From assembly GCA_903843305.1 (NCBI GenBank), contig CAIMPI010000027.1:26671-90670 (forward strand): a stretch of DNA of 64,000 nucleotides. Reading direction: 5' to 3'. This document shows, piece by piece, positions 10,177-36,904 of this stretch. Both the position numbers and the translations under genes were made by a program. Positions within the stretch are counted from its first letter, which is position 1. Every line of letters begins with the position of its first letter. Under the pieces are notes generated by a model. That model saw only the letters and a program-made list of their open reading frames with translations, made no database searches and was not told the DNA's origin. The stretch comes from an uncultured Chlorobiaceae bacterium (GTDB lineage: Bacteria > Bacteroidota > Chlorobiia > Chlorobiales > Chlorobiaceae).

Positions 10177-10496
10177 TGGCGAACAAGCAAAAAGAGACCG
10201 CCGGAAAGATGCATTTGTCGCCTCCTCTTCTGGGAGAGCTTCGCGGGATGATTGAAGAGAGTCGCAAGAGCCTTGCCGGTGCGGTTAATGCTTCAATGAC
10301 GATGCTTTATTGGCGAATCGGCAAGCGAATTGTTGCGACGCTGTCGCAACAATTGAGTTGGTCGCATTTCTGCGAAATCATCACTCTCGAAAATTATTTA
10401 CCCCGTGATTTCTATGCGGAAAGATATCGTATTGAACGTTGGAGGGCAAAAGGGTCTGCTCGAAGTGTTGGCAAGTTGCTGAAGGAGGGGAAGTGA
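10173..10496 (+). pseudogene. DUF1016/YhcG (PDDEXK) gene remnant, internally deleted and 3'-truncated
   Basis: N-terminal LYWRIGKRI is joined directly to IVATLSQQLSWSHFCEIITLENYLPRDFYAERYRIERW; the nuclease C-terminus is absent. Confidence 0.7.
10328..10354. repeat. Perfect 12-bp palindrome AATTGTTGCGAC-GCT-GTCGCAACAATT inside the yhcG remnant
   Basis: Read directly from sequence; encodes IVATLSQQL. Confidence 0.95.
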
Positions 10497-11662
10497 TGGC
10501 GATTTTCCCTAAAAAAACACTTGATGACATGCTTGTCTTTTACAATGGTAAGGCAATTAAACCGAAAGGTATAGGTGAATACCCTGTTTATGGGGCTAAT
10601 GGTATTATTGGTGGTGACGATAACTATATATTTTATAACGGTATAATAATCGGACGAGTTGGCGCTTATTGTGGTTCCGTTCAATATTGCTTTGGGAAAT
10701 TCTGGGCTTCTGACAATACAATAGTGGTCAAACCGAAAACTGATAACCAAGACATTCGTTTTCTATACTATTTGCTGGGGTTACAGAATCTCAACAATTA
10801 TGCAGGTGGAGCAGCACAACCTCTCGTTACACAAACTGTACTCATGCAAGTTGAAGCTTTTTGTCCTCCTCTCCCCGTACAGCGAAAAATTGCAGCTATC
10901 CTCTCAGCCTACGACGACCTGATTGAGAACAACCTGCGGCGTATCAAGATTCTGGAAGAGATGGCGCAAAACCTCTACCGCGAGTGGTTCGTCAAATTCC
11001 GCTTTCCCGGCCATGAGCATGCACGGTTTGTCGATTCGCCTTTGGGCAGAATACCGGAGGGATGGGAAGTGAAGGCACTTGGAAAGATTGCTATTCAAAC
11101 AAGAGATGCTGTGCAGCCTGGTTCAGTTGATCCAGAAACTCCTTATTTCGGTCTTGAACATCTTCCAAGAAAATCCATTGCACTCTCAGATTGGGGTTTC
11201 GCTGCTGAAGTTAAAAGCACCAAATTGTTGTTCAAAAAGGGTGACATACTGTTTGGAAAAATCCGTCCATATTTTCACAAAGTAGGTGTAGCTCCGTTTT
11301 CTGGGGTGTGTTCCTCGGACACCATCGTTATCAGACCAAGAGAAAATGATTGGTTTGGTTTAGTTCTTGGCTGCACTTCAAGTGTCGAGTTTGTAGAACA
11401 TGCAACGGGAACTTCTCAGGGAACGAAAATGCCAAGAGCAAATTGGGATGTTTTGGTGAAGTATCAAATATCCTTGCCGAATCGAGCAATCCTTTGTCAG
11501 TTTAACAACGTTATGAGCGACATCGTAAGTCAGCTTCATAATTTTGTGTTTCGTAATCATACCCTCCGCCGCACCCGCGACATGCTGCTCCCCAAGCTCT
11601 TCTCCGGCGAGATGGATGTCTCCGACCTTGATATTACCATTCCAGAGGAGGCTGTTGCATGA
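10496..11662 (+). CDS. hsdS: Type I restriction-modification specificity subunit
   Basis: Two TRDs; central PVQRKIAAILSAYDDLIENNLRRIKILEEMAQNLYREWFVKFRFPG; C-terminal LRRTRDMLLPKLFSGEMDV. Confidence 0.93.
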   Translation: MAIFPKKTLDDMLVFYNGKAIKPKGIGEYPVYGANGIIGGDDNYIFYNGIIIGRVGAYCGSVQYCFGKFWASDNTIVVKPKTDNQDIRFLYYLLGLQNLNNYAGGAAQPLVTQTVLMQVEAFCPPLPVQRKIAAILSAYDDLIENNLRRIKILEEMAQNLYREWFVKFRFPGHEHARFVDSPLGRIPEGWEVKALGKIAIQTRDAVQPGSVDPETPYFGLEHLPRKSIALSDWGFAAEVKSTKLLFKKGDILFGKIRPYFHKVGVAPFSGVCSSDTIVIRPRENDWFGLVLGCTSSVEFVEHATGTSQGTKMPRANWDVLVKYQISLPNRAILCQFNNVMSDIVSQLHNFVFRNHTLRRTRDMLLPKLFSGEMDVSDLDITIPEEAVA

Positions 11663-11850
11663 AAATTGAAACGTTACTCAGCCGACCGGAGGGAAAAAAC
11701 CTTGCGTTCAAACCTGGGGCGGACATCAACCCTGACACACGGGACGTCCGGGTAGTGTCCGTGTTGTTTGCCGGGTTCCGTGAAGCAACTGGAAAAAGTG
11801 CTTATGACCCACAGAAACGCTATTTGCCAGCAAAGGAGTCCCAACCATGA
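11659..11850 (+). pseudogene. Probable scar of an AlbA/Schlafen-type putative DNA-binding protein gene
   Basis: N-terminal MKIETLLSRPEGKNLAFK resembles the AlbA_2 start (..RPEGKTLEFKRD..), then unrelated sequence and a stop overlapping hsdR. Confidence 0.5.
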
Positions 11851-14800
11851 CACCACCTTCCGGCGGGTACAGTGAAGATGCTCTGATTGAGCAACCAGCA
11901 ATTGCCTTGCTTGAAAGCCTTGGCTGGAAGACCATCAACGCTTATAGTGAGTTCGACCACGGTACGAGCATCCTGGGCAGGGAGACCAAAGCGGAAGTTA
12001 TCCTGAAAACGCACCTGCGCCTTGCCCTGTTGCGTATCAATCCTGATGTGGCGGTTGAGTCCATCCACCAAGCCATTGAGGAGCTGAACCGTGACCGTTC
12101 GCGCATGAGTGCTGTTGCGGCCAATCGTGAAATCTATCTTATGCTCAAGAGTGGTGTCCGGGTTCCAGTAGCCGATCCTGATGGTGATGGGGAATCGGTG
12201 GAAGTGGTTCGGGTGGTTGATTGGGAGAACAGCGCCAATAATGACTTTCTGCTTTGTTCACAGTTCTGGGTAACGGGTGAAATGCACACCAGACGAGCAG
12301 ATCTGGTTGGCTTCGTGAATGGGATGCCCTTGCTCTTCATTGAACTGAAAGCGACCCATCGACGGCTGGAAACGGCCTGGAAGGATAATTTGCGTGACTA
12401 CAAGGATACCGTACCGCAGCTTTTCTGGGCCAACGCGTTCATCATCCTTTCCAATGGCAGCCAGAGCCGCCTTGGAACAGTATCTGCCGGGTGGGAGCAC
12501 TTTGCTGACTGGAAAAAGATTGGCAGCGAAAGTGAGGCCGGGCGGGTATCGCTGGAGACGATGTTGCGCGGAGTCTGTGATCCGGTACGGTTTCTTGACC
12601 TGGTTGAAAACTTCACCCTCTTTCAGGAAGTGTCCGGCGGATTGATCAAGCTGACGGCGAAGAATCACCAGTACCTCGGTGTGAATAACGCTCTGGAAGC
12701 TCTTGCCGATATTCGCCAGAGGGAGGGGAAGCTTGGTGTTTTCTGGCACACGCAAGGGAGTGGCAAAAGTATCTCGATGATGTTCTTTGCCCAGAAGGTA
12801 CTGCGCAAGGTGACGGGGAACTGGACGTTTATTGTTGTTACTGACCGGCAGGAGCTGGACGGCCAGATTTACAAGCACTTTGCCTCAGCCGGTGTGGTTA
12901 CTGAAAATGGTGCTCAGGCAGAGAGCAGCAAGCATCTGCGGCAGTTGATGACGGAGGATCACCGCTATGTGTTCACGTTGATTCACAAGTTCCGCACCGA
13001 GAATGGAGAGGCTCACCCCATGCTCTCCGACCGTCGAGACATCATTGTCATTACCGACGAAGCTCACCGCAGCCAGTACGATACTCTGGCAATGAATATG
13101 CGTACAGCTCTCCCAAACGCCTCTTTCCTGGCCTTTACAGGAACTCCGCTGATTATCGGGGAGGAGAAGACACGGCAGGTTTTTGGTGAGTACATCAGCG
13201 TTTATGACTTTCAGCAGTCGGTGGCCGATGGAGCAACCGTTCCTCTCTATTATGAGAATCGTATCCCTGAACTGCAACTGGTCAATGAGAACCTCAACGA
13301 AGATATGGAGTGTCTGCTCGAAGCAGCAGAACTCGACGAAGCACAGGAGAAGAAGCTTGAGCGGGAGTTTGCCCGTGAGTATCATCTGATTACCCGTGAC
13401 GACCGGTTGGAGCGGGTGGCAAAAGATCTTGTCGAACATTTCACCGGGCGCGGCTTTCAGGGCAAGGGCATGATGATCTGCATCGACAAGGCGACAGCCA
13501 TCAAGATGTATGACAAGGTCAAGAAGCATTGGACGGCGAAGATTGCTTCATTGCAGGCTGAACTGATGCGGAGTACCGATGCAGAGAGGCGAGACATCAA
13601 AGATCGCATTGCACGGATGAAAGAGACCGATATGGCGGTGGTGGTCTCTCAGGGGCAGAATGAGATTGCCGATATGAACGAGAAGGGGCTCGACATTCGA
13701 CCGCACCGTAAACGAATGGTGGAAGAGGATCTTGAAAAGAGATTCAAGGATCCGGATGACCCGTTCCGGCTGGTCTTTGTCTGCGCCATGTGGATGACCG
13801 GCTTTGATGTTCCGAGCTGTTCTACCCTCTACCTCGACAAGCCGATGCGCAACCACACCCTGATGCAGACCATTGCCCGTGCCAACAGGGTTTTTCTTGA
13901 CAAGGTGAGTGGCCTGATTGTGGACTATGCCGGTGTGTTCCGTAATCTGGAGAAAGCGCTTGCCATTTACGGTGTGGGCAAGGGCGGCAAGAAGCCGGTT
14001 GAAGACAAATCCGCATTGGTGGTCGCATTACAGCAAGCTTTGGAAGCAAGCCGAAGCTTGTGCACACAACAGGGCGTGAACCTTGCCTTGATCCAGAATG
14101 CTGAAGGGTTTTCGCGTGTCGAACTGCTTGACAATGCCGTTGAGGCACTGATTGTCTCAGAAGAGGTCAAACGACGTTATCTTGACCTGGCCAATACCGT
14201 CCAGCGGCTTTACAAGGCAGTATTACCAGACCTTCAGGTACATGAGTTTGCTGCTGAAGTATCGCCCATCAAGGTCATTGCTGATAAAATCCGTGCATTG
14301 GTTCCCTCTGCCGATATTACACAGGTGATGGAGCAGGTGGAAGCACTGCTTGATCAGTCGATTGCGACTGAAGGCTATTTTATCAGGGAGGTCAGTGCGC
14401 CTGATAACGATGAACACTTGATTGCCCTCAGCTCCATTGATTTTGAAAAGCTGGCTGAAAAGTTCAAAACAAGCCGAAAGCGAACGCTCAACGAAAAACT
14501 CAAGGGAAGTGTAGGACAAAAGCTGATAGCAATGGTACGACTCAATCGGACTCGTATGGATTATCTCGAACGGTTCCAGCAAATGATTGCGGCTTACAAT
14601 GCTGGAAGCCTCAATCCCGAAGAGTTTTTCCGCCAACTGGTCACTTTTGCCCAGAGCCTGAATGAAGAAGAGAAACGGGGAGTGAGCGAACAGTTAACCG
14701 AAGAGGAGCTGGCACTTTTTGACCTGTTGATGAAACCGCCGATTGAGATGAGTGATGCTGATCGGGAAAAGGTGAAAGCTACCGCAAAAGAGTTGCTGGT

Positions 14801-15008
14801 GACACTCAAGAACAACAAACTGGTGCTTGATTGGCGGAAACGGCAACAGGCGCGTGCAGCGGTCAGGGTGGCCATTGACAAGCTGCTGGATGACCACCTG
14901 CCAAGGGCATACACGCCAGAACTCTTCAAGCAGAAATCAACTGCGGTGTTCCAGCATGTTTATGATGCCTATTATGGTTCAGGGCGCAGTGTCTATGCAG
15001 CAGCGTGA
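11847..15008 (+). CDS. hsdR: Type I restriction endonuclease subunit R
   Basis: 1053 aa; Walker A HTQGSGKS, DEAHRS, SF2 helicase motifs, FTGTPLI. Confidence 0.95.
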   Translation: MTPPSGGYSEDALIEQPAIALLESLGWKTINAYSEFDHGTSILGRETKAEVILKTHLRLALLRINPDVAVESIHQAIEELNRDRSRMSAVAANREIYLMLKSGVRVPVADPDGDGESVEVVRVVDWENSANNDFLLCSQFWVTGEMHTRRADLVGFVNGMPLLFIELKATHRRLETAWKDNLRDYKDTVPQLFWANAFIILSNGSQSRLGTVSAGWEHFADWKKIGSESEAGRVSLETMLRGVCDPVRFLDLVENFTLFQEVSGGLIKLTAKNHQYLGVNNALEALADIRQREGKLGVFWHTQGSGKSISMMFFAQKVLRKVTGNWTFIVVTDRQELDGQIYKHFASAGVVTENGAQAESSKHLRQLMTEDHRYVFTLIHKFRTENGEAHPMLSDRRDIIVITDEAHRSQYDTLAMNMRTALPNASFLAFTGTPLIIGEEKTRQVFGEYISVYDFQQSVADGATVPLYYENRIPELQLVNENLNEDMECLLEAAELDEAQEKKLEREFAREYHLITRDDRLERVAKDLVEHFTGRGFQGKGMMICIDKATAIKMYDKVKKHWTAKIASLQAELMRSTDAERRDIKDRIARMKETDMAVVVSQGQNEIADMNEKGLDIRPHRKRMVEEDLEKRFKDPDDPFRLVFVCAMWMTGFDVPSCSTLYLDKPMRNHTLMQTIARANRVFLDKVSGLIVDYAGVFRNLEKALAIYGVGKGGKKPVEDKSALVVALQQALEASRSLCTQQGVNLALIQNAEGFSRVELLDNAVEALIVSEEVKRRYLDLANTVQRLYKAVLPDLQVHEFAAEVSPIKVIADKIRALVPSADITQVMEQVEALLDQSIATEGYFIREVSAPDNDEHLIALSSIDFEKLAEKFKTSRKRTLNEKLKGSVGQKLIAMVRLNRTRMDYLERFQQMIAAYNAGSLNPEEFFRQLVTFAQSLNEEEKRGVSEQLTEEELALFDLLMKPPIEMSDADREKVKATAKELLVTLKNNKLVLDWRKRQQARAAVRVAIDKLLDDHLPRAYTPELFKQKSTAVFQHVYDAYYGSGRSVYAAA

Positions 15009-21717: not shown

Positions 21718-22158
21718 ATGACAGAAGAGTTTCTCTCTCATTCCGAGCGCGATACGCGCCAGATTGCCATGCTGTGCGCCTCAAGCCTGCAACCAGGAGA
21801 TATTGTCTCTCTCTCAGGGCAACTCGGGGCGGGTAAAACCCTCTTCATGAGAGGGATTACTGAATTTTTCAACTGTGATGAGCAGCTTTCCAGCCCCACC
21901 TTCTCTCTGTTCAATATCTACCAGGGATCATTTGAAGGCGGAGAGGTTGTGCTGCACCATTTTGATCTCTACAGAATTGAGTCACTTCGGGAGCTCGAAG
22001 CTATAGGGTTCGACGAATATCTCTCCAGCGGCGATCTCTCTTTTGTGGAGTGGGCTGAGCGATTTCCCGAATACGCCTCTCTCTACACGCTGACGGTATC
22101 TCTTGAGTATACTGGCGACGAGAGCCGCCGAATTCTTATTAATCGGGTTGATCGATGA
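21718..22158 (+). CDS. tsaE: tRNA t6A threonylcarbamoyladenosine biosynthesis ATPase
   Basis: P-loop GQLGAGKTLFMRGI, SSPTFSLFNIY, HFDLYRI. Confidence 0.93.
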   Translation: MTEEFLSHSERDTRQIAMLCASSLQPGDIVSLSGQLGAGKTLFMRGITEFFNCDEQLSSPTFSLFNIYQGSFEGGEVVLHHFDLYRIESLRELEAIGFDEYLSSGDLSFVEWAERFPEYASLYTLTVSLEYTGDESRRILINRVDR

Positions 22159-22835
22159 ATATTCTGGCCATTGAGTGTACCCATGAAGCCTTGAGTGCAG
22201 CAGTCTCATGCTCCGGTGTCGTGACCGAAGCTCTTTGCGTAGACTGGAAAAAGGCTGCGGAGTCGCTTGTACCGCTTGTCGAACAGGTGATGACGGAGAG
22301 CCGTCTCAATCGGCAGGAGCTGGAGTGTATTGCCATCTCCTCAGGCCCCGGCTCCTTTACTGCGCTGCGCATCGGTATGTCTGTTGCCAAAGGAATTGCC
22401 TATGGGCTCGGCATACCGCTGGTTCCGGTGCCCACCTTATCAGCCATGGCAGCATCATTACAGGCAGCCGCTGGTACGGTTATGGCGGTAATTACGGCCC
22501 GCAAGGGAGAGTATTACTATGCGGCCTATCGTTCAGAAGATCTCTCTTCAAGCGTATGGCATGATGAGGTTAAAAGGGGCTCTGCGGCTGATGTTGCGTC
22601 TGCAGCGGACGTTCTTGCCCTGAGTGGTGAGGCGGTTGTTGTCGGGCGCAGACTTGATGAGCTAATTCCTCTGTTGGCAGCTTCCGGCGTAGTGTACAGA
22701 GAAGCAGACTTTTTTTCCGCCCGTTCGCTTTTTTCTGCTGCTGAAAGGCTTTTTGCGCCAGCGGATACTGCGGATCTTAATGGGATTTCTCCCGATTATC
22801 GGCAGACGTTCAGCCCCAATGGCGGGCGCGGGTGA
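22155..22835 (+). CDS. tsaB: tRNA t6A biosynthesis protein TsaB
   Basis: MNILAIECTHEALSAAV, SSGPGSFTALRIGMSVAKG; overlaps tsaE. Confidence 0.92.
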   Translation: MNILAIECTHEALSAAVSCSGVVTEALCVDWKKAAESLVPLVEQVMTESRLNRQELECIAISSGPGSFTALRIGMSVAKGIAYGLGIPLVPVPTLSAMAASLQAAAGTVMAVITARKGEYYYAAYRSEDLSSSVWHDEVKRGSAADVASAADVLALSGEAVVVGRRLDELIPLLAASGVVYREADFFSARSLFSAAERLFAPADTADLNGISPDYRQTFSPNGGRG

Positions 22836-22929
22836 GTTCGGAATGAATTCTATGTATAGTTGTAGCGCGGAATGCAGGCGCGTATAGTCATATCAGTCTC
22901 AATCAGGTCAGTTGAAAGTAGAACAATCT

Positions 22930-24084
22930 ATGAACATCAAAAAAATATTCACCACGTTACTGGTTTTCTTTTTTTTATTGGTTCCCACTATAAGTTATGC
23001 CCAAAAAATTTCTTTGTACGACCATACTGGCGAGGCTGTTGCGTGTATTGCTGATGATGAAAATATATACTTGTCGAAGGGTGATGCGATCGCATATCTG
23101 AACGAGCAATCTATTTATGGTTTAAATGGAAAACATCTTGGCTGGTTTAAGGACGGAATAATCTGGGACCACGAAGGTTATGCCGTTGGCTTTATTGATG
23201 GTGCATTCAATAAAGTTAAAGAATTTGAAGGCCTAAAGGCTATAGACGCCTTGAAGGAGCAAAAAAATCTTAAGATTCAAAAGGGTCAAAGGGGAACACT
23301 ATCCCTTTTAAAATCAAGTCAAGATCCAGCACCCATGGAGCCCAAATATCAAAGCAAATGGGCAAGACTTTCCTTGGAGAATTTTTTCACAACTGGACAA
23401 CAATTCGATAAATACGCATCTTATACAGCTCAAGATTACTCCGTTGTTAATAATGTCTGGAATAAGCAACTCGGTAATGGTTGGCAATGTATTAATCTGC
23501 CGAATAAGCAAAGTTTTTCCTGGAACTGGAATTGGGTCGATAATAAAAAGACCGTACCTATCTCTTATCCATCCGTTATTTTCGGAGACAAGCCCTGGGA
23601 TTGTCAAGGAACAACCGCACGCACCCTTCCTTGTATAGTGTCAAGTCTTAAACAGCTTTATGTTGCGCACGATTACGCTCTGAATTCCGATGGTGGCAAG
23701 TACAATGTTGCCTATAGCTTGTGGCTCACAGACGGGCCATTCTCCAGCGTTAAAGCTATTCGGGCTGAGGTTATGGTCTGGGTTGAATCAAGTGGTGACG
23801 TTCAGCCGTATGGATATCCAGATCATCTGATTGAAGACACAGAGAACTATACACTTTATAAGCACAAGCGTACTGAAGGCACTAAGCGCTGGGATTGTTA
23901 CAGCTTCAAATTGAAACAGTCACATCGCATAGCCCTTATAAACTTAGGCGAGCTCCTTCAAAATCTCATTAAAAACCAGGGATTAAGTACAGATCTCTAT
24001 TTGACCGATGTTGAGTTTGGAACCGAAATCTGGAACGGTCAGGGTAAAATGAATATCAATTTTTATAAAGTTTCAATGCTCTGA
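22930..24084 (+). CDS. Secreted protein: 4-fold beta-flower-like N-terminus plus GH12 (endoglucanase-like) C-terminus
   Basis: Signal peptide MNIKKIFTTLLVFFFLLVPTISYA; ISLYDHTGEAVACIADDENIYLSKGDAIAYL; GH12-like YNVAYSLWLTD, AEVMVWVESSGDVQPYG, YLTDVEFGTEIWNGQG. Confidence 0.7.
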   Translation: MNIKKIFTTLLVFFFLLVPTISYAQKISLYDHTGEAVACIADDENIYLSKGDAIAYLNEQSIYGLNGKHLGWFKDGIIWDHEGYAVGFIDGAFNKVKEFEGLKAIDALKEQKNLKIQKGQRGTLSLLKSSQDPAPMEPKYQSKWARLSLENFFTTGQQFDKYASYTAQDYSVVNNVWNKQLGNGWQCINLPNKQSFSWNWNWVDNKKTVPISYPSVIFGDKPWDCQGTTARTLPCIVSSLKQLYVAHDYALNSDGGKYNVAYSLWLTDGPFSSVKAIRAEVMVWVESSGDVQPYGYPDHLIEDTENYTLYKHKRTEGTKRWDCYSFKLKQSHRIALINLGELLQNLIKNQGLSTDLYLTDVEFGTEIWNGQGKMNINFYKVSML

Positions 24085-24199: not shown

Positions 24200-25654
24200 T
24201 CAGGCACTGAAAAGTTTTCTGTACTCGGCATTGACCTCCTGATCAGCCGTTTTCACGGTTATTTTTTCTGGAATGCTCTTATAGAGGGCTCGGAATTTTC
24301 TGATACAGGCCGATGATGAAAAGTATATTTCGTCAATAAAGTCAAGGTCCAAAGATTCATTCAGTTCAGGTGTATTATGCTCTGCGTCCTCAACCTGAGT
24401 GCAAGGGAAACGTACTTTGATATACTCCTCAGAAGCATAGATACCGGAATCCTCATCCACAATCAGCACCTTTTTCTTTTTGGAGTACCAGTTATCCTCA
24501 ATAAACTGGTTGATATTTTCACCAAGAATAAGCAGTGCTGGAGAATAGACCGCCTTTTCACTTTTTCTTAATTCACCCAGAGTTCCGGTGATAATTTTTT
24601 GATTGTACCTTGTTGCATTCTGAACGATAGCGACCATGGTCTCTTCATCCCTTCCTTTTTTTGCAACCGCATTCAGCACTTCCTGAACAGTCGATGCCAC
24701 CATGTAATAGACAAGGGTATCGGCATCCGGCACCTGAATTTTGTTGACAGGATGACCAGTGCAGAAGGCAACCGATGAGGAGATTTTTCTCATGGTCAGC
24801 GGTATTTCTGTATAGGCGCTGGCTCCATGGGCGGCTGTAATACCGGGAATAATTTCATACCTGATTCCATGTTGCCTCAGCACTTCTATTTCTTCGCCGC
24901 CTCGGCCAAAAATAAAGGGATCTCCGCCTTTGAGTCTTGCAACTTTTTTCCCTTGCAGGGCGTGACGAATGATCTCTTCATTGATGGCTTCCTGTTCAAA
25001 GTGATGGTGGTCTTTTCTTTTACCGGTATAAATTTTCAAGGCTTTAAACTGGGCAACAAGCTCGCTGCTCACCAGATCATCGTAAAGAATGACGTCGGCT
25101 TCACGAAGCACTCTTTCCGCCTTTATGGTCAGTAATTCCGGATCACCAGGCCCAGCGCCGATGATAGAGACATATCCTTTCTTGTGCGGTTCGGAGCGCT
25201 TTGTAAAGAAATCACCATGCTGGAGCATAGCTTTTATCTTGTTTCGCCACTCAACTGTTTTTTTTACATTTTCGCCATTTGAAGATACGGCAATGGTCAT
25301 CTCATCTTTCTTGATAACTGCCGGTGAGATAAAATCTGATAACTCCCGGTTATCGACAACATTGACCATAATTCCATAAGTTGCCGCATCGTTTTTTATC
25401 CTGCGGTTCACCTCTAAGTTGTTGGTGCAGGCATAGACAAGAAAGAAGCCCTCAAGATCTGATGTTTCATACTCTTTACAGATCTCCTCGAAGCCCATCT
25501 GATGCAACTCATCCTGGATCTCGGGAGATATAATTAAAATATTCCGGGTGTACTGCAGAACCGTCTTGATCTTATGAAGCGCAATTTTACCGCCTCCGAC
25601 AAAGAGAATTTTCTTGTTATCTATTCTGATGTTCAATGGCAGAAAGCTCTTCAT
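24200..25654 (-). CDS. cysG: Siroheme synthase-like fusion: precorrin-2 dehydrogenase + uroporphyrinogen-III C-methyltransferase + degenerate HemD-like extension
   Basis: N-terminal [58 protein letters not shown]; extra ~90 aa C-terminus. Confidence 0.88.
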
Positions 25655-25703
25655 GATTCACCCTTATTATTGGCAGGATCTCCCGCAACCTCAAACTGAT
25701 TGT

Positions 25704-26861
25704 TCACTGTTCGTTTTCCATCTTTACGGCAACGACCACCTTGAGCAATATGGTAAGCAAAAGAATTCCGATACCCCAGATTCCAAGGGTAACGAAAATT
25801 TCAGTTGCGGTGGGAGTGTACTGAACAATCTCCTGCTGTGGCGAAGGAACAAAGCCTCCCAAAATCAGGCCGACACCTTTGTCAATCCAGATGGAGAGGA
25901 CAAGAGCTGAACATGCACCGACAAGCCATGGTGTTGATTTCCTTAATGCCGGAACAAGAAGAACGATGATGGACGCTACCCCGGAAATCAGGGAAAACCA
26001 CATCAAGGGCACAAACTGGCAGTTGCCGTCAAGACCAAAAAAGAGGTATTGCAGACTCTCTTTATGGGCGGGCACGTTGCTGTAAAATGCGGTAAAGAAT
26101 TCCGTGCCGAGAAAGAAGATATTGGCCACACCAGCATAAGTTGCCAAGACAGCAAGTTTCGCTCTTGCCTCTTTGCCAGTGTCGAACCCTGTTGTTCGTT
26201 TCAGGATGAGGGAGACAAGAATAAGCAGCGCCGTTCCGGCGGCAAAGGCGGAGGCGAGAAAGCGCGGGGCAAGTACTGCCGTCAACCAGAGGTGGCGGCC
26301 TGGCATCCCTGCATAGAGAAATGCGGTAACGGTATGAACACTGAATGCCCAGGGAATTGAGAGATAGATCAAAGGCTTGACCCAGGCTTTAGGCGGCACT
26401 CCCTTTCTCTCCGCACCGAGCATCGCCCAACTGCTGACCAGGTTCATGAGAAGATAACCGGAGAGCACAAGAAGATCCCAGAAGACCATAGAGTGGGGGC
26501 TGGGGTATAACATGATGTTCAGGAGACGATCAGGCCTGCCCATATCAGCCAGAATGAAAAGCATACTCATCAGGGTTGCCGATACCGCCATAAACTCACC
26601 AATGATCACTGTTTTTGCAAATTCCTTCTGATGATGCAAGTAGTAAGGGAGAACCACCATAACCGCAGAGGCTGCGACGCCAACAAGAAAGGTGAATTGT
26701 GCAATATAGAGGCCCCAACTTATATCCCGCCCCATTCCTGTGACGGTAAGCCCGAACCACCTCTGCTGGTTGTAGGCTGAGAGGCCGATACCTATAACAG
26801 AGATAAGGAAGGCTATCCATATCCAGTAACTGCGGTTTCCTTTCAGAGCTTTCTCAATCAT
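25704..26861 (-). CDS. dsrP: Membrane protein of Dsr complex, NrfD family
   Basis: Multi-TM NrfD-like protein directly downstream of dsrO. Confidence 0.9.
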
Positions 26862-26870
26862 GGGAAATCG

Positions 26871-27650
26871 TTAAATAATGTAAAAAACTGAAGGTTTGGT
26901 TCCCAACTCAGGCTTCCGCTGCATGGTCTCATTGGCTTCAAGAAGGCGACGAATATCGGAGCGGGGATCGTTCAGATCACCGAAGGTCAGTACCTGCTCA
27001 GGACAGGCCTCTGTGCATGCAGGCTGCTGGCCTTTGACCAGGCGGTCGGAACAGAAATTGCATTTTTCAACAACGCCTTGCTCCCTTGTGGGGTATGTCG
27101 TGACCGGATCGTGTATGGCCGTGCGCGGATCCTGCCAGTTAAAGCTTCGTGAACCATAGGGGCAAGCCGCCATACAGAAACGACATCCGATACAGCGGTG
27201 ATAATCCATCGCCACGATACCGTCCCACCGTTTAAAGGTCGCCTCGGTCGGGCATGCTTTTGTGCAAGGCGAATCGGAGCAATGGTTGCACAGGGCAAGA
27301 TATGAGCGATCCTGAATCTCCTTGCTGACAAATTGCTGGCTGGCTGTTGGAAAGACCTTCTGGTATGAGTTTTGCCAAATCCACTTGATCTCGTCTTTCT
27401 TGTTCCTGAAATCAGGAACGTTATGGACGTGATGGCACGCGGCTGAACATTGCTGGCAGCCCTCCTTGCATTTGCGCGTATCAATCAGCATTCCCCATCG
27501 AATTTTTCCCGGAACAGGTTTCTCATCCCAGACAGGAAGAACCGTTTTTTCCAGTGAAAAGGCGGGAACAAGCCCGGATGCAGCGCCGAGCCGGACAAGA
27601 ACCCCTAATGCGGTTTTCTTGATAAATTCTCTTCTTTGTTCATTCATCAT
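26871..27650 (-). CDS. dsrO: Periplasmic ferredoxin-like iron-sulfur protein
   Basis: Tat-type [12 protein letters not shown]; cysteine clusters [31 protein letters not shown]. Confidence 0.92.
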
Positions 27651-28030
27651 GGTGTTTCCATCGGCGACAGATGACAATTCCAGCACTTTGGTTTTACATT
27701 GGCATAGCTATGGCAGTTGAAGCAGAAAAGTCTGTTGTTGGAGTGACAACCCAGGCATGTATTCAGACTCTTCTCGAATTTACTGCCATTTGGAGCGATG
27801 TAGACTCGATTCCCGGTTCGAACCGATGAATTCCGCCACTCATACAGCACCTGCATGTGATTGGCGCGCATGAACGCTGCCGGAGCGATGCACTTGGTAC
27901 TGTCAATCGCCATAGTCTTATGAACGGATGGTGGTGGAGTTTCAGCCTCCCCTTTCCGGAAAACATTCAGCACAGCAAAAAGAATAATGGCGGTAACGGT
28001 AATAATCCAAAGTAATTTTCTACTCATCAT
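27647..28030 (-). CDS. dsrJ: Triheme cytochrome c DsrJ
   Basis: N-terminal membrane anchor; CLGCH, CFNCH, CWNCH. Confidence 0.92.
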
Positions 28031-29669
28031 CATCACCTCCATCCTCAAAACCTGCCATTGCATTCTCCCTCAAGTCGGTTGTTCTCTTTTTCTCACCCTG
28101 CATGACAAGCGCATTCCCTACAAGCTCATGAAGACCATAGACCGAAACCCCCGGATTCCAGTAATTCATCAGAGGAGGAAGACTGGCCCGGTCGATGGCG
28201 CAGATGGTCACAAGGGAGTTGACCTTGTGGCGATCTTTGACCTGCTTGACGGCATTGGCTCTCGGAAATCCGCCCCTCATACGAATCTCCATATACTCTT
28301 CTGCATTAAGACCACTTCCGGAACCACAGCAGAAGGTCTTCTCCCGGATGGTATCCTCCGGCATTTCATGAAAACTGTTGCAGACGCTCCGTAGAATAGA
28401 ACGGGGCTCCTCGAACATGCCCATTCCTCTGGCTACGTTGCAGGAATCGTGAAAGGTTGTCCGCAGATGATCGTTTCGCTTCGGATCCAGTTTCAGCTTT
28501 TTGTTATGGATCAAATCAGCAGTAAATTCTGCAATGTGTACCATTTTTGTGGCGGCAGCATTACTGAAGCGGGTTCCTGTAATCGGAGAAACCGGCACCT
28601 CAAGAAAATCCGCTGGGCCGTTCATAGTGTTCATATACTGATGTACCACACGCCACATGTGCCCGCACTCACCACCGAGTATCCATTTCACTCCAAGCCG
28701 TTTTGCTTCATGATACATCTTGGCATTCAGCTTCTTCATCATATCGTTCGAGGTGAACATGCCGAAATTACCCCCTTCAGAAGCGTAGGTGCTGATGGTA
28801 TAATCAAGACCAATATGATGGAAGAGTAACAGATAGCCCATCATCGTATAGACGCCGGGATCACCGAACACATCGCCGGAAGGAGTAATGAAGAGTACCT
28901 CCGCACCCTTGCGATTGAAGGTAGGAGCCACTGCAATCCCGGTAAGATCTTCAATATCCTCAGCCAGTGACGTTATATTCTGGACAAAGGTGTGCGGCTC
29001 AATACCAAGGTGATTGCCGGTGCGGTTGCAATTCGAAACAGGAGCAAGAATCCAGTTATTGTTCACGCCAATGAGGTTCAGCAGCTCCCTGACCATCATG
29101 GTTATCTCCGCAGTATCGATCCCGAAGGGGCAGAAAACAGAGCAGCGGCGACATTCGGTACACTGGTGAAAATACATGTGCCACTCTTTGATCACGGCTT
29201 TCGTCAGCTTCCGTGAACCTGAAAACCCTTTCAGAATCTTCTCTACAAGAGGAAAATCATTGCGATAGACCGAGCGAAGCAGCTCTGCACGAAGTACCGG
29301 CATATTTTTAGGATCACCGGTGCCAAGGAAAAAATGGCATTTGTCGGCACAGGCTCCGCAACGAACACAGGCATCAAGAAAAAGTTTCAGTGAACGGTAC
29401 TTCTTCAGGCGACTTTGCAACCCGTCACTAATCGTTTTCTGCCAGTCTGCAGGCAGTTGCCAGTCCTCGTCGGTTGCCGCCCATTTCCTTGGATTGGCAA
29501 AACCAAGATCTGCAAGCACCTCCGGTTTGCCGGGAAAACACCAGTTCCCATCACGGAACTCTACAGGGATGTCCCACCACTCCTGGGCAGAATAGTCGCC
29601 TTTGAGAACACTGGGCTTTTCGTCGAACTCTTTTTTAAGCTCGGATAGTTTTGGAGCGTATTTCGACAT
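28020..29669 (-). CDS. dsrK: HdrD-like iron-sulfur protein
   Basis: [32 protein letters not shown] domain [12 protein letters not shown]. Confidence 0.94.
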
Positions 29670-29671
29670 AA

Positions 29672-30667
29672 TTATTGCTTTTCAATCGGCAGATTGGCCT
29701 TTTTCATCTTCTCGCGGTAATCATCCTCATACTCGGAGTATGTTCTGAACTTGATAACAGCATTCCATGGATTGACATGCCGTTTTTGACGACTGTTATT
29801 GCTCAGATTGCGGGTCGGACTTAAAAAAATCGCTCCGGCATGCATCAGCTTGCTGAAGGGGAAATAGATCGCAAGAACTGAAACCAGGAAGAGATGAACA
29901 TAAAAGAGAGTGCCTATCTCTCCCGGATCATCAAAACTGAAGTTGACAAGCCTCAGCATCTGGTCTTTGACCGGCATGATATCCAGTCTTACCACGTAGC
30001 GCATGAGAACGCCAACCACAACGATAGCCGCTATGAGAAAAAGTGGGAAGTAATCAGTCTGCAATGAAATAAGACGCATTTTTGCATCGTTCAGCCGGCG
30101 AAAAACAAGAAAGGTGATGGCCGCAAGAACCAGCGCATCGGTGATATAAAAGGCCGGAAGAGTGACGTCAAGAAAACCATCCGCATGATCAAGAAAATCG
30201 GTGAATCCCGGAACCATGACAAAAAAGAAACGGGAGTGGCGAAGCACAATGACAAGCAGTGACCAATGAAACGCAAGTCCTCCAAGCCATAGCCATTTGT
30301 GTGATCCGTACGCCAGATTGGCATCTTTATGGAGCTCGGCCCTGGTATTGCGGAAAAGAGAGCGGAAGAAAAGCACTTCTGACAAAACCCTGACTGCTGC
30401 TTCCCAGAAATGAGCGGGACTTTCCAGTCTGTCATACTTGATCCAATCCAGAGATTTTTCCTGTCCGCAGGTTGTTGGAATACGAAATGGAACAGGTCGC
30501 CTGAGCCAGTCTGTCAGACGCAAGAGAAAACCAGCCAGTAATACAACAATTGCTGTATAGGGTATTATGACTCCGAAAAGATAGGATAAACCGGCATACT
30601 GCACGCCAAGAAAGGGGATAAGGGCAAGAATCGCCACCATAACAAGCGGCATAAGAACTTTCTTCAT
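29672..30667 (-). CDS. dsrM: Cytochrome b-type membrane subunit (NarI-like)
   Basis: NarI/HdrE-like multi-TM protein upstream of dsrK. Confidence 0.92.
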   Translation of the reverse strand: MKKVLMPLVMVAILALIPFLGVQYAGLSYLFGVIIPYTAIVVLLAGFLLRLTDWLRRPVPFRIPTTCGQEKSLDWIKYDRLESPAHFWEAAVRVLSEVLFFRSLFRNTRAELHKDANLAYGSHKWLWLGGLAFHWSLLVIVLRHSRFFFVMVPGFTDFLDHADGFLDVTLPAFYITDALVLAAITFLVFRRLNDAKMRLISLQTDYFPLFLIAAIVVVGVLMRYVVRLDIMPVKDQMLRLVNFSFDDPGEIGTLFYVHLFLVSVLAIYFPFSKLMHAGAIFLSPTRNLSNNSRQKRHVNPWNAVIKFRTYSEYEDDYREKMKKANLPIEKQ

Positions 30668-31125
30668 GCCTCAGCCCTCCTCAACGCCATGTACATACGG
30701 CGGCTACCCTCTTCAACTTTAAGCTGATATATTTTTTCCCGATGTTGCATGTAACTGTCGAATGCTTCAAGAGTGAGCGCGTCAAGACGCGAATTGAATA
30801 CCTCCTGCATCAAGGTGTCTGCCACAGTGGTTTTCATCATGATGTCACGCAGAATGAGTTTCGGTTCCAAAAAAATTGACAATGCTTTTGACGGCGGAAA
30901 GTTCTGTACGGCTAAAATCCTTGTAACATCTTCAAGGGCCTCCTTGCAATCGTTTTCACTCTTTCTGAGGGAGGAAAGAATCTTTTCCAGCGCCCCGGAA
31001 AGCACCATGGCAATCGGAGTACTGTAACCCATTTTTTCGGGAAACAATGCAAGCGCACAATCCAGCCATTGCTCAAGAATTGCTTTTTTGTTGGCCTCCA
31101 GCAAATCTGTCCATCTTGTCTTCAT
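30664..31125 (-). CDS. dsrT: RsbRD N-terminal-domain-like protein, dsrT position
   Basis: RWTDLLEANKKAILEQWLDCALALFPE; located between dsrH and dsrM. Confidence 0.7.
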   Translation of the reverse strand: MKTRWTDLLEANKKAILEQWLDCALALFPEKMGYSTPIAMVLSGALEKILSSLRKSENDCKEALEDVTRILAVQNFPPSKALSIFLEPKLILRDIMMKTTVADTLMQEVFNSRLDALTLEAFDSYMQHREKIYQLKVEEGSRRMYMALRRAEA

Positions 31126-31170
31126 AGCGTACTGAGTAACAATTTCAGAATTCTGTCATCAGTCAGCAAC

Positions 31171-31479
31171 TCAAAACCAACTGTTCACCTGATGTTCTTC
31201 GACAAGGCCGACAAATCCTTCGTAATCAACAGTTTCAACACCTTCAGCAAGAGCACCAATGCCCCGCGCATCCAAATCGGGCCTCAGTGCAAAAACAGGA
31301 TTGGTCTTTAGAACACGCTCAATCGTGGATGAAAATTTATTGCCGCTCTGAACCGCATAGACACCGTCTTCAATAAAGAGAACGGGATTGCCCGGCAACA
31401 GAAACCTGATACAGGTCTCGAATGTATTATTTTCAAAAGGAGACTTATTGATAGTATGCAACATGGTTCTTACGGTCAA
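31171..31479 (-). CDS. dsrH: DsrH/TusB family protein
   Basis: LHTINKSPFENNTFETCIRFLLPGNPVLFIEDGVYA; third in the E-F-H set. Confidence 0.88.
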   Translation of the reverse strand: MTVRTMLHTINKSPFENNTFETCIRFLLPGNPVLFIEDGVYAVQSGNKFSSTIERVLKTNPVFALRPDLDARGIGALAEGVETVDYEGFVGLVEEHQVNSWF

Positions 31480-31865
31480 TGGTGAATAATGACATCCTGT
31501 TCCTTCATCAGCAGGGCTGTCTCTTCGGCGTCAAGCACTTCGACATCCACGATGAGATCGTCTTCGGTCAGACCCCGTTCTTCCAGTGAGACTCTGTCGA
31601 CATAAAGTTTTTCAACATCATAACCATCCAGCGCCATGAAGGTCTTTGAAAAACCCTTGATACCGATACCGCTGGTATCCTGACCTTTTTTAAGGGCATA
31701 GACCCCGTCGCCGATAAAGACAACCGAAAGATCCTGCTCGTAGGCTGCCATAATCAGAATCATTTCCAGCCCCTCATAGGTATAGATTGTGCCGTGCGGC
31801 GCATGGCGCAGCACATGCATGATCTTCTTTACATTTTCGTTTTCCATAGATGCTTCAATCTCCAA
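31476..31865 (-). CDS. dsrF: DsrF/TusC family protein
   Basis: HGTIYTYEGLEMILIMAAYEQDLSVVFIGDGVYAL. Confidence 0.88.
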   Translation of the reverse strand: MEIEASMENENVKKIMHVLRHAPHGTIYTYEGLEMILIMAAYEQDLSVVFIGDGVYALKKGQDTSGIGIKGFSKTFMALDGYDVEKLYVDRVSLEERGLTEDDLIVDVEVLDAEETALLMKEQDVIIHH

Positions 31866-32214
31866 AGGTTACCAGTCGGTCGTTACGGATGGCAATGTCG
31901 GTAAGGGTTCCAAGGCCGGTGATAGCGCTTCCCTCTACCAGAACATCATCATTGATCCCTCGACGTTTGGAGGCTGCTATGCAGGCAAGGATTTCTACGC
32001 CATGTTTATTACTTAGTTCACTCCATCGTGCGGCGATATTGCGGTCGTCCTGGGGTGGGTCCATAAGCTTTGTCACATTGGTGACACCATCATTGTAAAG
32101 AAAGACTGCGTCAACCGTATGTCCTTTTTTGATGGCGGCTTCAGCAAACTTGAAGGCCGTATCAGAAGCCTGGTGGTTATACGGTCCCTCCTTGAGCAAA
32201 ATTCCTATTTTCAC
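31855..32214 (-). CDS. dsrE: DsrE/TusD sulfurtransferase, GTG start
   Basis: KIGILLKEGPYNHQASDTAFKFAEAAIKKGH; ILACIAASKRRGI active-site region. Confidence 0.9.
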   Translation of the reverse strand: MKIGILLKEGPYNHQASDTAFKFAEAAIKKGHTVDAVFLYNDGVTNVTKLMDPPQDDRNIAARWSELSNKHGVEILACIAASKRRGINDDVLVEGSAITGLGTLTDIAIRNDRLVTFGD

Positions 32215-32264
32215 TGCCGATCCGTTCGTTAAAAGTTTATGAAAAAACAGACTCTGCTGCGCGG

Positions 32265-32633
32265 TCAAACCCCTGCACGCTTCTCTTTAAATTCCTCATA
32301 AAGCGGCAACCATGTTTTTGAATATTCAGCGAATGGTTTTTCGATAAACTGGCAAAAATAAAGCGCGTTATCGGCGGCAAAAACGTTGCTGTTTTTCAGT
32401 GCATCCAGCGCCTTCTGGCCTGAATCAGCAGCATCATTTCCTGTAAGTTTCGCCTGGTTCCAATAATTGAGCGCCTCCTGCCGAAAAACAAAATTTTTCG
32501 GCAGTGACTGGGCCTGCTGGAGCGACGACACCTCTGTATTGCGGGGTCCGAAAGTAACCGGCCAGCCTGTTTCAGACCACTTTCTGGAGCATGCTATGGC
32601 CTCCTGAACCTGATTTATGACATCTTCTGACAT
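32265..32633 (-). CDS. Hypothetical protein embedded in the dsr operon (122 aa)
   Basis: ORF tightly spaced between dsrL and dsrE, same strand. Confidence 0.7.
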   Translation of the reverse strand: MSEDVINQVQEAIACSRKWSETGWPVTFGPRNTEVSSLQQAQSLPKNFVFRQEALNYWNQAKLTGNDAADSGQKALDALKNSNVFAADNALYFCQFIEKPFAEYSKTWLPLYEEFKEKRAGV

Positions 32634-32674
32634 GGATTGTTATCTCCTTGTTTTCATGGTTTTTTTCCCGGGGC

Positions 32675-34411
32675 CTAAAGGCCTTCACCCATCCCCATCT
32701 GGATATACCCTGAAGGGCAGACCAGTGAACAAAGATGGCATCCGACGCATTTGGAATAATTGGTATAGACCACTTCACCGGGCGGATTGTCTCTGAACCT
32801 CGTAACTGCTTCCTGGGGACAGAACGAGACGCACTGTTTGCAGTCGAAACAAAGCCCGCAGCTCATACAACGCTCTGACTCCGCCTTTGCTTCACTTTCT
32901 GTCAGCGCTACAAGGAGTTCGTCGTGGTTACCAACCACCTCTTCCAGCTCAATGGTCTCGCGCTTTGCCTGTTCCGAGTGGGCAAAGTAGAGCACATCCT
33001 GCTTATGGACTTTTGTTATCTCCCGATAACCCTGCTCAGGAAGAGACTCCCCTTTAAGAAAAGCATCGATAGAATTTGCAGCCTTGCGTCCATGACCAAC
33101 TGCCGTGGTGATAAGATCGACTTTTATGGCATCGCCACCGCCGAACAGTTTTTCTTTGCCAGGCAAACGAAAATATCTGTCAACCTTGAGCCATGGGCTG
33201 CCAGCGGTAACGCTTTCAAAACCACGCATGTCGGCTGTCTGCCCGATGGCAGCAACAACCATATCAGCCTCAATGTCAAAAGTTTCTTCGGTATTTTTAT
33301 ACCTGAAAAAGGGAATTGGCGAATTCCAGCCCTCTTCTCCCTTCACTTTTTTCACCATGCGGGCACAGCGAAGAGCTTGAACACCATCTTTTCCTTTGAT
33401 TACTTCCAGCGCCCCGGCCATATAATGCATGGTTGTTCCTTCCCTGGCTGCATCATCAAACTCTATCTGGAAACAAGCCATCTCCTCCTTTGGAACCCCG
33501 GCAACAACTGATGCCTGGGAACCAAGCCGAAGTGCAAGTCGCGCAACATCCATGGCGACGTTTCCATCGCCTATAATCAATACTTTTTTCCCTATGGCTA
33601 TATCATCGCCCTGGACTTCGTAGTTTCTCAGGAAATCAATGGCGTTGGTTACACCTGGAGTGCCTGCGGAACCCGGTACCGGAAGAGAACGACCAACCTG
33701 TGCCCCGGGAGCAATAAAAATCGCGTCGTACTCTTGATCCAGTTGCTCAAGGGAGATATCCGTTCCAACACGGACTCCCATTTTTGTTTCAACGCCAAGG
33801 TTGATAATGCGCTGAATTTCAGTGTCAAGAATTTTACGGTCGACCCTGTAGCCCATGATACCATAGAGCACCATGCCTCCCAATTTTTCATTAGTATCGT
33901 AAATCGTTACGGCATGACCTTTTCGACGAAGCTGGTATGCTGCGGAAAGTCCTGCAGGACCGCCTCCGATAACAGCAACTCTCTTGCCGGTATCAGGCCC
34001 TGCTCCGGGCAGTTGCAGGCCTGCGTCAATGCCGTAATTGCCAATCGCCTGTTCAACGGCATTAATGGCCACACTTTCATCGTGGTACTGGCGATTGCAT
34101 GCGCTCTGGCAGGGATGAGGACATATCCGGCCCATAACGGCAGGAAAGGGATTTGCATCAACAATCGTCTCCCATGCTGATTTCCATGCATTATCGGACT
34201 TGTCGATGCCGTTCAGCAGCCGCTGATAGCCCCGAATATTTTCCCCGGCCGGACATTCCGCTGAACATGGCGGAAGCTGGCTGACATACACCGGACACTT
34301 GTGACTATGATCTCCAAATGCGACAATTTTATCGGTTCCCTTCATTTCACTGTATGGGGGGAACACATAAGATGTCGCAAAATCAAGGACTGGATTGGAT
34401 TCTACCTTCAT
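32675..34411 (-). CDS. dsrL: NAD(P)H:acceptor oxidoreductase DsrL
   Basis: GltD-like flavoprotein (VAVIGGGPAGLSAAYQL) with C-terminal 4Fe-4S clusters; follows dsrB. Confidence 0.93.
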   Translation of the reverse strand: MKVESNPVLDFATSYVFPPYSEMKGTDKIVAFGDHSHKCPVYVSQLPPCSAECPAGENIRGYQRLLNGIDKSDNAWKSAWETIVDANPFPAVMGRICPHPCQSACNRQYHDESVAINAVEQAIGNYGIDAGLQLPGAGPDTGKRVAVIGGGPAGLSAAYQLRRKGHAVTIYDTNEKLGGMVLYGIMGYRVDRKILDTEIQRIINLGVETKMGVRVGTDISLEQLDQEYDAIFIAPGAQVGRSLPVPGSAGTPGVTNAIDFLRNYEVQGDDIAIGKKVLIIGDGNVAMDVARLALRLGSQASVVAGVPKEEMACFQIEFDDAAREGTTMHYMAGALEVIKGKDGVQALRCARMVKKVKGEEGWNSPIPFFRYKNTEETFDIEADMVVAAIGQTADMRGFESVTAGSPWLKVDRYFRLPGKEKLFGGGDAIKVDLITTAVGHGRKAANSIDAFLKGESLPEQGYREITKVHKQDVLYFAHSEQAKRETIELEEVVGNHDELLVALTESEAKAESERCMSCGLCFDCKQCVSFCPQEAVTRFRDNPPGEVVYTNYSKCVGCHLCSLVCPSGYIQMGMGEGL

Positions 34412-34429
34412 GAATTATCTCCTGTAAGT

Positions 34430-35509
34430 CTAAAAGCGGACATGAGCAGACTGATTGAATGTGGTTCTTGCATGACGGTAACTGTCAATCATGTCATCAT
34501 CAAAAGTAAGTCCTGTTTCTTCAAAAAAGCGCTTCCATCCAATCCGGTTAATCCACTCCCCGACTCGTTCCCAGGGACGTCCACCCTCTTTATATGCGGT
34601 AAGGATCTTGCCGATCACCTCGGTGACCTCAGGCCATCTTGGCGGATTGTTAGGCAGATTGTGGGCAACGATACTCATGGTTGATGGTTTTGAACGGGCG
34701 TTGCTGTTCTTGCCGCCAACCCAGATCGCAAATTTTGAATGCTCTGGATGGTTGATTTCCATTGCCGGACAAGCGCCAAAACAGGCGCCGCAACAGATAC
34801 ATTTTTCCTCATCGACCATGAGCGATTTCTTGCCATTGATCACCGTCGGCCTGATAGCCGCAACAGGACAACGTGCAACCGCCTTCGGTAATTCACATAT
34901 TGTGGCGAGGTGATCGTGATTGATTCTTGGGGGTCGGGTGTGTTTGACAACCACAGCGATATCGGCCTGGCCGCCACAATTAATGGCGCAGCAGGATGTC
35001 GAGAGCCTGACCTTGTTCGGCATCTGCATCCCCTTGAACTCATTATACACAGTGTCCATCATTGACTTGACAACTCCTGAAGCATCCGTCGCCGGAATAT
35101 CACAATGAAGCCACCCCTGGGTATGGGACACGGAAGAGACACACATCCCTGTTCCACCGACAGGAAAGCCCATTTCCTCGAGCTCGCGGATCATCGGTTC
35201 TACATTTGCTTCGTTGGGAGTCAGAAACTCAACGTTGTTGCGTACCGTAAACCGAAGATAACCATCGCTGTACTTGTCTGCGACATCACAAAGCCGTCTC
35301 AGCATATCAACCGTATCCTGACGGGGAGTACCTGCCCGGACCGTGTAGATTGCATCGCCACTTTGTGCGACATGCTTCAGAACACCCGGCTTGGGAATCT
35401 CGTGGTATTTCCACTTCCCATAGTTCTTTCTTACAACCGGATGCAAGGCCTCCTCGTAGCTGTGAGGCCCCGACTCAACGGTTTTCCACTTTTTTTCAGG
35501 ACTGCTCAT
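34430..35509 (-). CDS. dsrB: Dissimilatory sulfite reductase beta subunit
   Basis: Siroheme/Fe-S motifs STSCCAINCGGQAD; ferredoxin CICCGACFGACP. Confidence 0.95.
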   Translation of the reverse strand: MSSPEKKWKTVESGPHSYEEALHPVVRKNYGKWKYHEIPKPGVLKHVAQSGDAIYTVRAGTPRQDTVDMLRRLCDVADKYSDGYLRFTVRNNVEFLTPNEANVEPMIRELEEMGFPVGGTGMCVSSVSHTQGWLHCDIPATDASGVVKSMMDTVYNEFKGMQMPNKVRLSTSCCAINCGGQADIAVVVKHTRPPRINHDHLATICELPKAVARCPVAAIRPTVINGKKSLMVDEEKCICCGACFGACPAMEINHPEHSKFAIWVGGKNSNARSKPSTMSIVAHNLPNNPPRWPEVTEVIGKILTAYKEGGRPWERVGEWINRIGWKRFFEETGLTFDDDMIDSYRHARTTFNQSAHVRF

Positions 35510-35605
35510 ATAGTTAATTCCTTAAATTTTGCCTTTCTCCTGAGGTTTGTTTCAGTCTCATTGAGAGAGTTGAATTCGATCAATAGAATCTGCCGCTCAA
35601 CGGGC

Positions 35606-36850
35606 TCAGTACCTTGCCTTGAAATAAGGATTGTCACGAGGCCTTGTCACCATATTGATGTTTGCTTCAAGGCCTACTCCCTCAAGGAAAAGCTTCAAGC
35701 CAACACGCTCGATGGTTTCACCGATACGTTCGTGATCAAGTCCGTTGTCATCCCACCAGTCGATAATTTCCTCAACCAGTTCGATAAACTCCTCCATATC
35801 CTCGTCACTCTCCATCTTCATGAACGGCACAATCAGCGAACCCATATTGACACCGACTTTCAGGGTGTTCTTGCCACCCATCAGGAGGGAGATTCCCCGC
35901 TCCTTGCCAGGAGAAAGCGCCTTGGGCATAACGTTCAGGCAGTGCATGCAGCGTACGCAATCCCTGCTGTCAATAACCATCTCACCATTTTTCAGTGATA
36001 TAGCCTTCGTCGGGCACAGATTGATCACCTGGTTCACCGCAGCGTCCATCCCGTTCGCTTCTACCCATGCTGTTACCTCTTCAGGTTCAATCTGGATTGC
36101 ATCCTTCCATGTGCCTATAACGGCCAGATCGGAACGCATGATGGCATTGGTGCAATCATTCGGACATCCTGAAAATTTCAGTTTGATTTTATAGTTCCAC
36201 TCGGGACGATGCAGTGGTCCCACAAAATGTTTGAGCAGCTTGAGATGAGCCTTGAGATCATCGTAGCAGGCATTCTCGCAACGACCAGGTCCGATACAGG
36301 AGACCGCTGTGCGCATCCCTGCACCAGCGCCGCCGAGATCCCAGCCTGCCTGGTTAAGTTCATCAAAACACTCCTGAACTTTATCCTGTTCAATGCCTTG
36401 CAGCATAATGTCACCGGTCTGGCCATGCAGGGTAATGATGCCGCTGCCGTACTTTTCCCAGGTATCACAAAGCCCCCGAAGCATCTCGGTATTGTAGTGA
36501 AGCCCCGGAGCTGGCTGAATTCGCATCGTGTGAAATTCAGTAGCTTCAGGGAACTTGTCTTTTATCATTGAATAGCGCGTGATAACACCAGCGCCATAAC
36601 CGTCGACCGTTACCAGACCACCTTTCCAATACCCCATTTTGGTATTGTACGAATACTCAAGCTGATCCATAACCCCACGCAACATGGGCTTTTCCGTTCT
36701 TTCGGCAAGTTCCTTGAACCCGGAAATAAAACTTGGCCATGGACCTTTTTCCAGTTCATCGAGCATAGGGGTAGGATTCAAGAACTTCCCGTTCCCACCA
36801 TCTTTGCCATGTATTACTTCATCTGAAGCTGCCTTTTGAGCGCCTTCCAT
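35606..36850 (-). CDS. dsrA: Dissimilatory sulfite reductase alpha subunit
   Basis: GPGRCENACYDDLKAH, KFSGCPNDCTNA, CVRCMHCLN. Confidence 0.96.
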   Translation of the reverse strand: MEGAQKAASDEVIHGKDGGNGKFLNPTPMLDELEKGPWPSFISGFKELAERTEKPMLRGVMDQLEYSYNTKMGYWKGGLVTVDGYGAGVITRYSMIKDKFPEATEFHTMRIQPAPGLHYNTEMLRGLCDTWEKYGSGIITLHGQTGDIMLQGIEQDKVQECFDELNQAGWDLGGAGAGMRTAVSCIGPGRCENACYDDLKAHLKLLKHFVGPLHRPEWNYKIKLKFSGCPNDCTNAIMRSDLAVIGTWKDAIQIEPEEVTAWVEANGMDAAVNQVINLCPTKAISLKNGEMVIDSRDCVRCMHCLNVMPKALSPGKERGISLLMGGKNTLKVGVNMGSLIVPFMKMESDEDMEEFIELVEEIIDWWDDNGLDHERIGETIERVGLKLFLEGVGLEANINMVTRPRDNPYFKARY

Positions 36851-36904
36851 TATTACCTCCTTTGATTCACAGTAAATTGGGATCAGCAAACCTCTTTCCA
36901 TCCA

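Follow-up and report, generated by a model that had tools for sequence, protein, structure and literature searches.

The flower-GH12 gene and its product

The window, that is, the whole 64,000-nucleotide stretch of DNA analyzed here, derives from a green sulfur bacterium, an organism that lives on light and sulfide. An open reading frame on its plus strand (22930–24084) encodes a protein of 384 amino acids in which a 4-fold beta-flower domain is fused to a GH12 domain, as identified by the frame itself and by Pfam matches, and which is predicted to be secreted. The frame opens with an ATG at 22930, 94 bases 3' of tsaB (22155–22835, plus strand), and its stop codon ends at 24084; the alternative start, a TTG in the same frame at 22912, is less likely. 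A scan for promoters and terminators returned no signal exceeding chance. Residues 1–24 (22930–23001, plus strand) read as a type I signal peptide, MNIKKIFTTLLVFFFLLVPTISYA^Q, with the junction SYA^QKIS and, as judged by eye, without a lipobox; the hydrophobic N-terminus is conserved in orthologues, and the fusion protein is probably exported. The beta-flower domain follows at residues 25–156 (23002–23397, plus strand), and the GH12 domain occupies residues 157–384 (23398–24081, plus strand), its start being set by the YASY start of a leaderless GH12 paralogue.

Both domain assignments made in a preliminary description of this DNA are upheld by profiles. The N-terminus matches PF21784 (Bflower) across residues 28–153 with 91.4 bits against a curated cut-off of 25 (6.5e-26, Pfam), and the C-terminal half matches PF01670 (Glyco_hydro_12) across residues 169–380 with 73.6 bits against a curated cut-off of 27 (3.1e-20, Pfam). 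The motifs quoted for the latter were all located (SWNWNW at residue 197, SYPSV at 212, YNVAYSLWL at 258, AEVMVW at 279, and GTEIW at 364). A chance resemblance to GH12 or flower proteins is ruled out by the profile scores together with the orthologues, and a decayed gene by intact frames and low dN/dS.

The beta-flower domain

The beta-flower is a fold reported in 2023, with no function proven for it, and it shares a Pfam clan with the Tubby-like domains (Durairaj et al., PMC10584680). A four-petal flower is expected to have eight strands (PMC10584680), and a prediction from flower sequences only places eight strands, mostly at pLDDT 86–92, within domain residues 1–70. A fold search of the PDB with the flower gave no relative at E < 0.001, which agrees with the earlier report of no convincing PDB match (PMC10584680). 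Alignment with stand-alone flowers shows that the domain retains the C-terminal W..LS.E.FF motif with which those proteins end. Thus, the fusion has in common with other PF21784 proteins (PMC10584680) the eight short strands and this terminal motif, but the short repeat tract that they carry between barrel and motif is replaced by a non-repetitive linker, and the fusion carries an enzyme. Because the protein is apparently secreted and the flower is related to Tubby-like domains (PMC10584680), our guess is that the flower is an added module that would hold the enzyme at the envelope surface or on a polymer. Joined as it is to an enzyme with assayable chemistry, the flower offers a first handle on beta-flower function.

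A stand-alone beta-flower protein of 119 amino acids with MKPMKQMKPMKG repeats is encoded on contig C145 of another genome, G018 (L009:1146–1505, minus strand). Just upstream (L009:1618–2991, minus strand) lies a gene for a radical SAM protein that resembles RiPP peptide maturases (PapB 1.5e-38, below the cut-off). The 119-residue protein may be the precursor of a modified peptide, with the beta-flower as its leader.

The GH12 domain

The preliminary description had named the GH12 beta-jelly roll as the fold to look for, and the predicted structure matches dozens of solved GH12 enzymes. In an AlphaFold model built from nine sequences the GH12 domain is mostly at pLDDT 75–94; in the same model the flower is weakly predicted and residues 90–156 form an unstructured stretch. 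The best 50 Foldseek matches listed are exclusively GH12 or GH12-type cellulases, headed by 2jem (target-normalised TM 0.87, E 1.3e-19, 25% identity in the structural alignment). The closest solved relatives of the domain are the Bacillus licheniformis xyloglucanase (2jem/2jen) and the GH12 domain of GuxA (7mkr). The two catalytic glutamates, also anticipated from the sequence, are E280 and E366; in alignment they pair with the 7mkr glutamates that occupy the catalytic positions of GH12, and both are invariant across the seven Chlorobium copies. E280 (23767–23769, plus strand; AEVMVW), the expected nucleophile, aligns with the glutamate of GTEIMIW in 7mkr, and E366 (24025–24027, plus strand; VEFGTEIW), the expected acid/base, aligns with both 2jem and 7mkr; judging by the alignment, the two are expected to face each other in the cleft. 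We infer that the fusion protein is an active retaining GH12 endo-beta-glucanase.

Compared with known GH12 endoglucanases and xyloglucanases (BlXG12 2jem, the GuxA GH12 domain 7mkr, and Cel12A), the protein shares the fold, both catalytic glutamates, and the motifs rich in tryptophan and tyrosine, but it is distant in sequence and bears a beta-flower at its N-terminus where carbohydrate-binding modules are usual. GH12 chemistry is already known; the enzyme family is ordinary, and it is the architecture and the host that are unusual. The distance from 2jem, a clear but divergent match, would suit a rival explanation in which the flower does the work, with the GH12 domain being catalytically weak or serving as a binding module, a lectin-like use of the fold, all the more as its activity is a prediction. 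We consider this improbable, since both glutamates are retained in 7/7 copies and dN/dS in the GH12 part is low.

Distribution and origin of the fusion

GH12 occurs in 5/86 genomes of the family, all within the single genus Chlorobium, and the window genome (G000) has one GH12 and one flower. Three genomes (G000, G032, and G064) encode the fusion, and four (G032, G064, G062, and G084) encode a GH12 protein of 224 amino acids without a signal peptide; in G032 and G064, which have both forms, the two stand in tandem with the leaderless gene directly behind the fusion. From stop to stop the leaderless frames measure only 225, 230, 230, and 254 codons and so have almost no space for a leader. These leaderless proteins (L016:6817–7488, L017:6815–7486, L018:5992–6663, and L019:5992–6663) are under strong purifying selection; as cytoplasmic beta-glucanases they would be a puzzle in a phototroph. 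Their dN/dS values are 0.06–0.16 and those of the fusions 0.15–0.26, with synonymous sites saturated in some pairs; the fusion orthologues are under purifying selection.

Several features bear on how the fusion arose. The Chlorobium GH12 copies group together, with all three fusions in a single clade (95/100). The flower part retains the end motif of a free-standing flower, and the GH12 part opens with DKYASYTAQDY, the counterpart in alignment of ERYASYPAQDY at the start of the leaderless protein. Therefore, the fusion apparently unites an entire gene for a secreted flower with an entire gene for a leaderless GH12 protein. An assembly chimera or a frameshift fusion is ruled out by the identical junction in two other genomes.

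The slot itself is conserved: tsaB precedes every GH12 locus in the five genomes, and rsfS and/or gyrA lie beyond it in the four other than G000. Among the near relatives checked (G078, G069, and G055) we found no GH12 remnants, the order there being tsaB-rsfS-gyrA. Neither rsfS nor gyrA was found within the window, so the locus is rearranged there. Directly downstream of the fusion gene, where other Chlorobium genomes have rsfS-gyrA, the minus strand carries a siroheme synthase-like gene and a dsr-like sulfur cluster (24200–36901). In the close relative G073, tsaB is directly followed by a gene that fuses a BcsZ-like GH8 with a GH16 of the beta-1,3/1,4-glucanase type (L100:2114–4378, contig C189), and therefore different beta-glucanases occupy that place. 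The patchy occurrence of GH12, typical of accessory traits, would fit an antagonistic or envelope role in which the enzyme cuts a surface polymer of a neighbor or consortium partner and the flower is an adhesion module. We give this little credence, as no adjoining immunity gene, toxin delivery motif, or defence neighbor was seen and the actual neighbors are tsaE/tsaB and the siroheme/dsr genes.

The pairing of flower and GH12 appears to be new as far as we have searched. Scanning 84,980 genomes for the Chlorobium GH12 motifs, a pattern search that reaches close relatives only, turned up only four Chlorobium or Chlorobiaceae records plus a single Treponema GH12 that lacks a flower. At the level of the phylum, 395 genomes yielded ten with GH12 and eleven with an above-cut-off flower, and only the three Chlorobium genomes combine the two in one protein; no plasmid or phage record covered 80% of the fusion query.

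A glucan synthase cassette and the proposed role

The preliminary description suggested a role on a cell-surface polymer of the bacterium itself or of a neighbor, and the first of these is supported by the presence of a beta-glucan synthase cassette in this genome. On contig C37, consecutive genes encode a TPR protein (749 aa), a GT2 (511 aa), and a GH8 (428 aa). The GT2 matches solved BcsA at about 1e-43 and, with DDS, DAD, TED, QQHRW, and FQVTPK, has 5/5 of the processive beta-glucan synthase motifs (DD, DxD, (T)ED, QxxRW, and FxVTxK) in the set for BcsA, CrdS, and BgsA that we took from PMC6821405. Against the TIGR03030 BcsA equivalog it scores 241.5 bits, below the cut-off of 699.1, so we call it only a BcsA-like GT2, and it has no match to a PilZ domain; for these two reasons the polymer cannot with certainty be called cellulose. 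The motif set leaves the linkage unsettled, being common to cellulose, curdlan, and mixed-linkage synthases (PMC6821405). The GH8 is BcsZ-like, scoring under the equivalog cut-off. A text search of the open-access literature found no title or abstract on a Chlorobium cellulose synthase.

Across the 86 genomes, GH8 is present in 27, namely 5/5 with GH12 and 22/81 without (Fisher p 0.0023), and it nearly always adjoins a BcsA-like GT2. Within the nearest 14 genomes, 13 of which have GH8, the association is absent (5/5 GH12 genomes versus 8/9 others, p 0.64) and may thus only mark the clade; we therefore reject co-occurrence of GH12 and GH8, confounded as it is by phylogeny, as functional proof. 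Since GH8 is present in all five GH12 genomes and usually adjoins a BcsA-like GT2, the bacterium itself probably makes a beta-glucan exopolymer. Extra GH8 genes lie beside a purF-like gene in G055, G069, and G077 (L078, L082, and L084), there without an adjoining GT2.

Based on this evidence we lean, with moderate confidence, toward the hypothesis that the fusion is an exported, active GH12 endo-beta-glucanase that acts on the bacterium's own beta-glucan, with the flower probably as an anchor. The most likely substrate would be a cellulose-like or mixed-linkage exopolymer, made by the BcsA-like GT2 and exported via the TPR/outer-membrane protein encoded with the BcsZ-like GH8. Cleavage of this glucan by the GH12 domain, whether periplasmic or at the surface, would free, trim, or remodel it, by analogy with the BcsZ-type endoglucanases of cellulose systems, while the flower would probably keep the enzyme on the envelope surface or the polymer. 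Like the BcsZ-type GH8 of cellulose synthase operons, the fusion is thus proposed to be an exported endo-beta-1,4-glucanase working on self-made glucan, but it belongs to an unrelated family and fold and its gene lies outside the synthase operon. The latter point speaks against an own-glucan role, as do the GH8 that the genome already has for that job and the leaderless paralogues, which would be cytoplasmic and away from the polymer.

Alternatively, the enzyme could attack foreign beta-glucans or xyloglucans in algal or plant debris of lakes, where it would loosen detritus or nourish a heterotrophic partner from which sulfide or CO2 flows back. That the closest solved relative, 2jem, is a xyloglucanase and that the isolate names of three GH12 genomes (Umea1, Kiruna3, and L442-64) suggest northern lakes are in keeping with this possibility, which we nonetheless hold to be rather unlikely. 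The genome has its own glucan cassette; GH1 and GH94 were not found, and its two GH3s have the KHFPGHG motif of NagZ and are NagZ-like, so there is no obvious use of cello-oligosaccharides, or visible route for the products, in those families. Given the cassette, the GH8-GH16 in the G073 slot, and this glycosidase complement, we favor trimming or release of the bacterium's own glucan over feeding.

We agree only partly that a cellulase-fold enzyme in an autotroph is a surprise: the host is indeed unusual, but endoglucanases are a normal part of cellulose-making operons (PMC9693552, PMC5407803), and the Acidisarcina cellulose locus, where GH5 has displaced GH8, provides a precedent for a change of family (PMC9693552). 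Our results suggest that some members of the genus Chlorobium have a cellulose-like exopolymer system. As a speculative extension that we advance with low confidence, the flower may be a new type of accessory module that steers glucanases to the envelope or to the cell's own beta-glucan, and green sulfur bacteria may build and trim a cellulose-like coat with a trimming enzyme, GH12 or GH8-GH16, that depends on the species and is encoded at one slot.

The left-hand portion of the window (8626–15008) contains a type I restriction-modification-like gene set with, by appearance, M, S, and R subunits.
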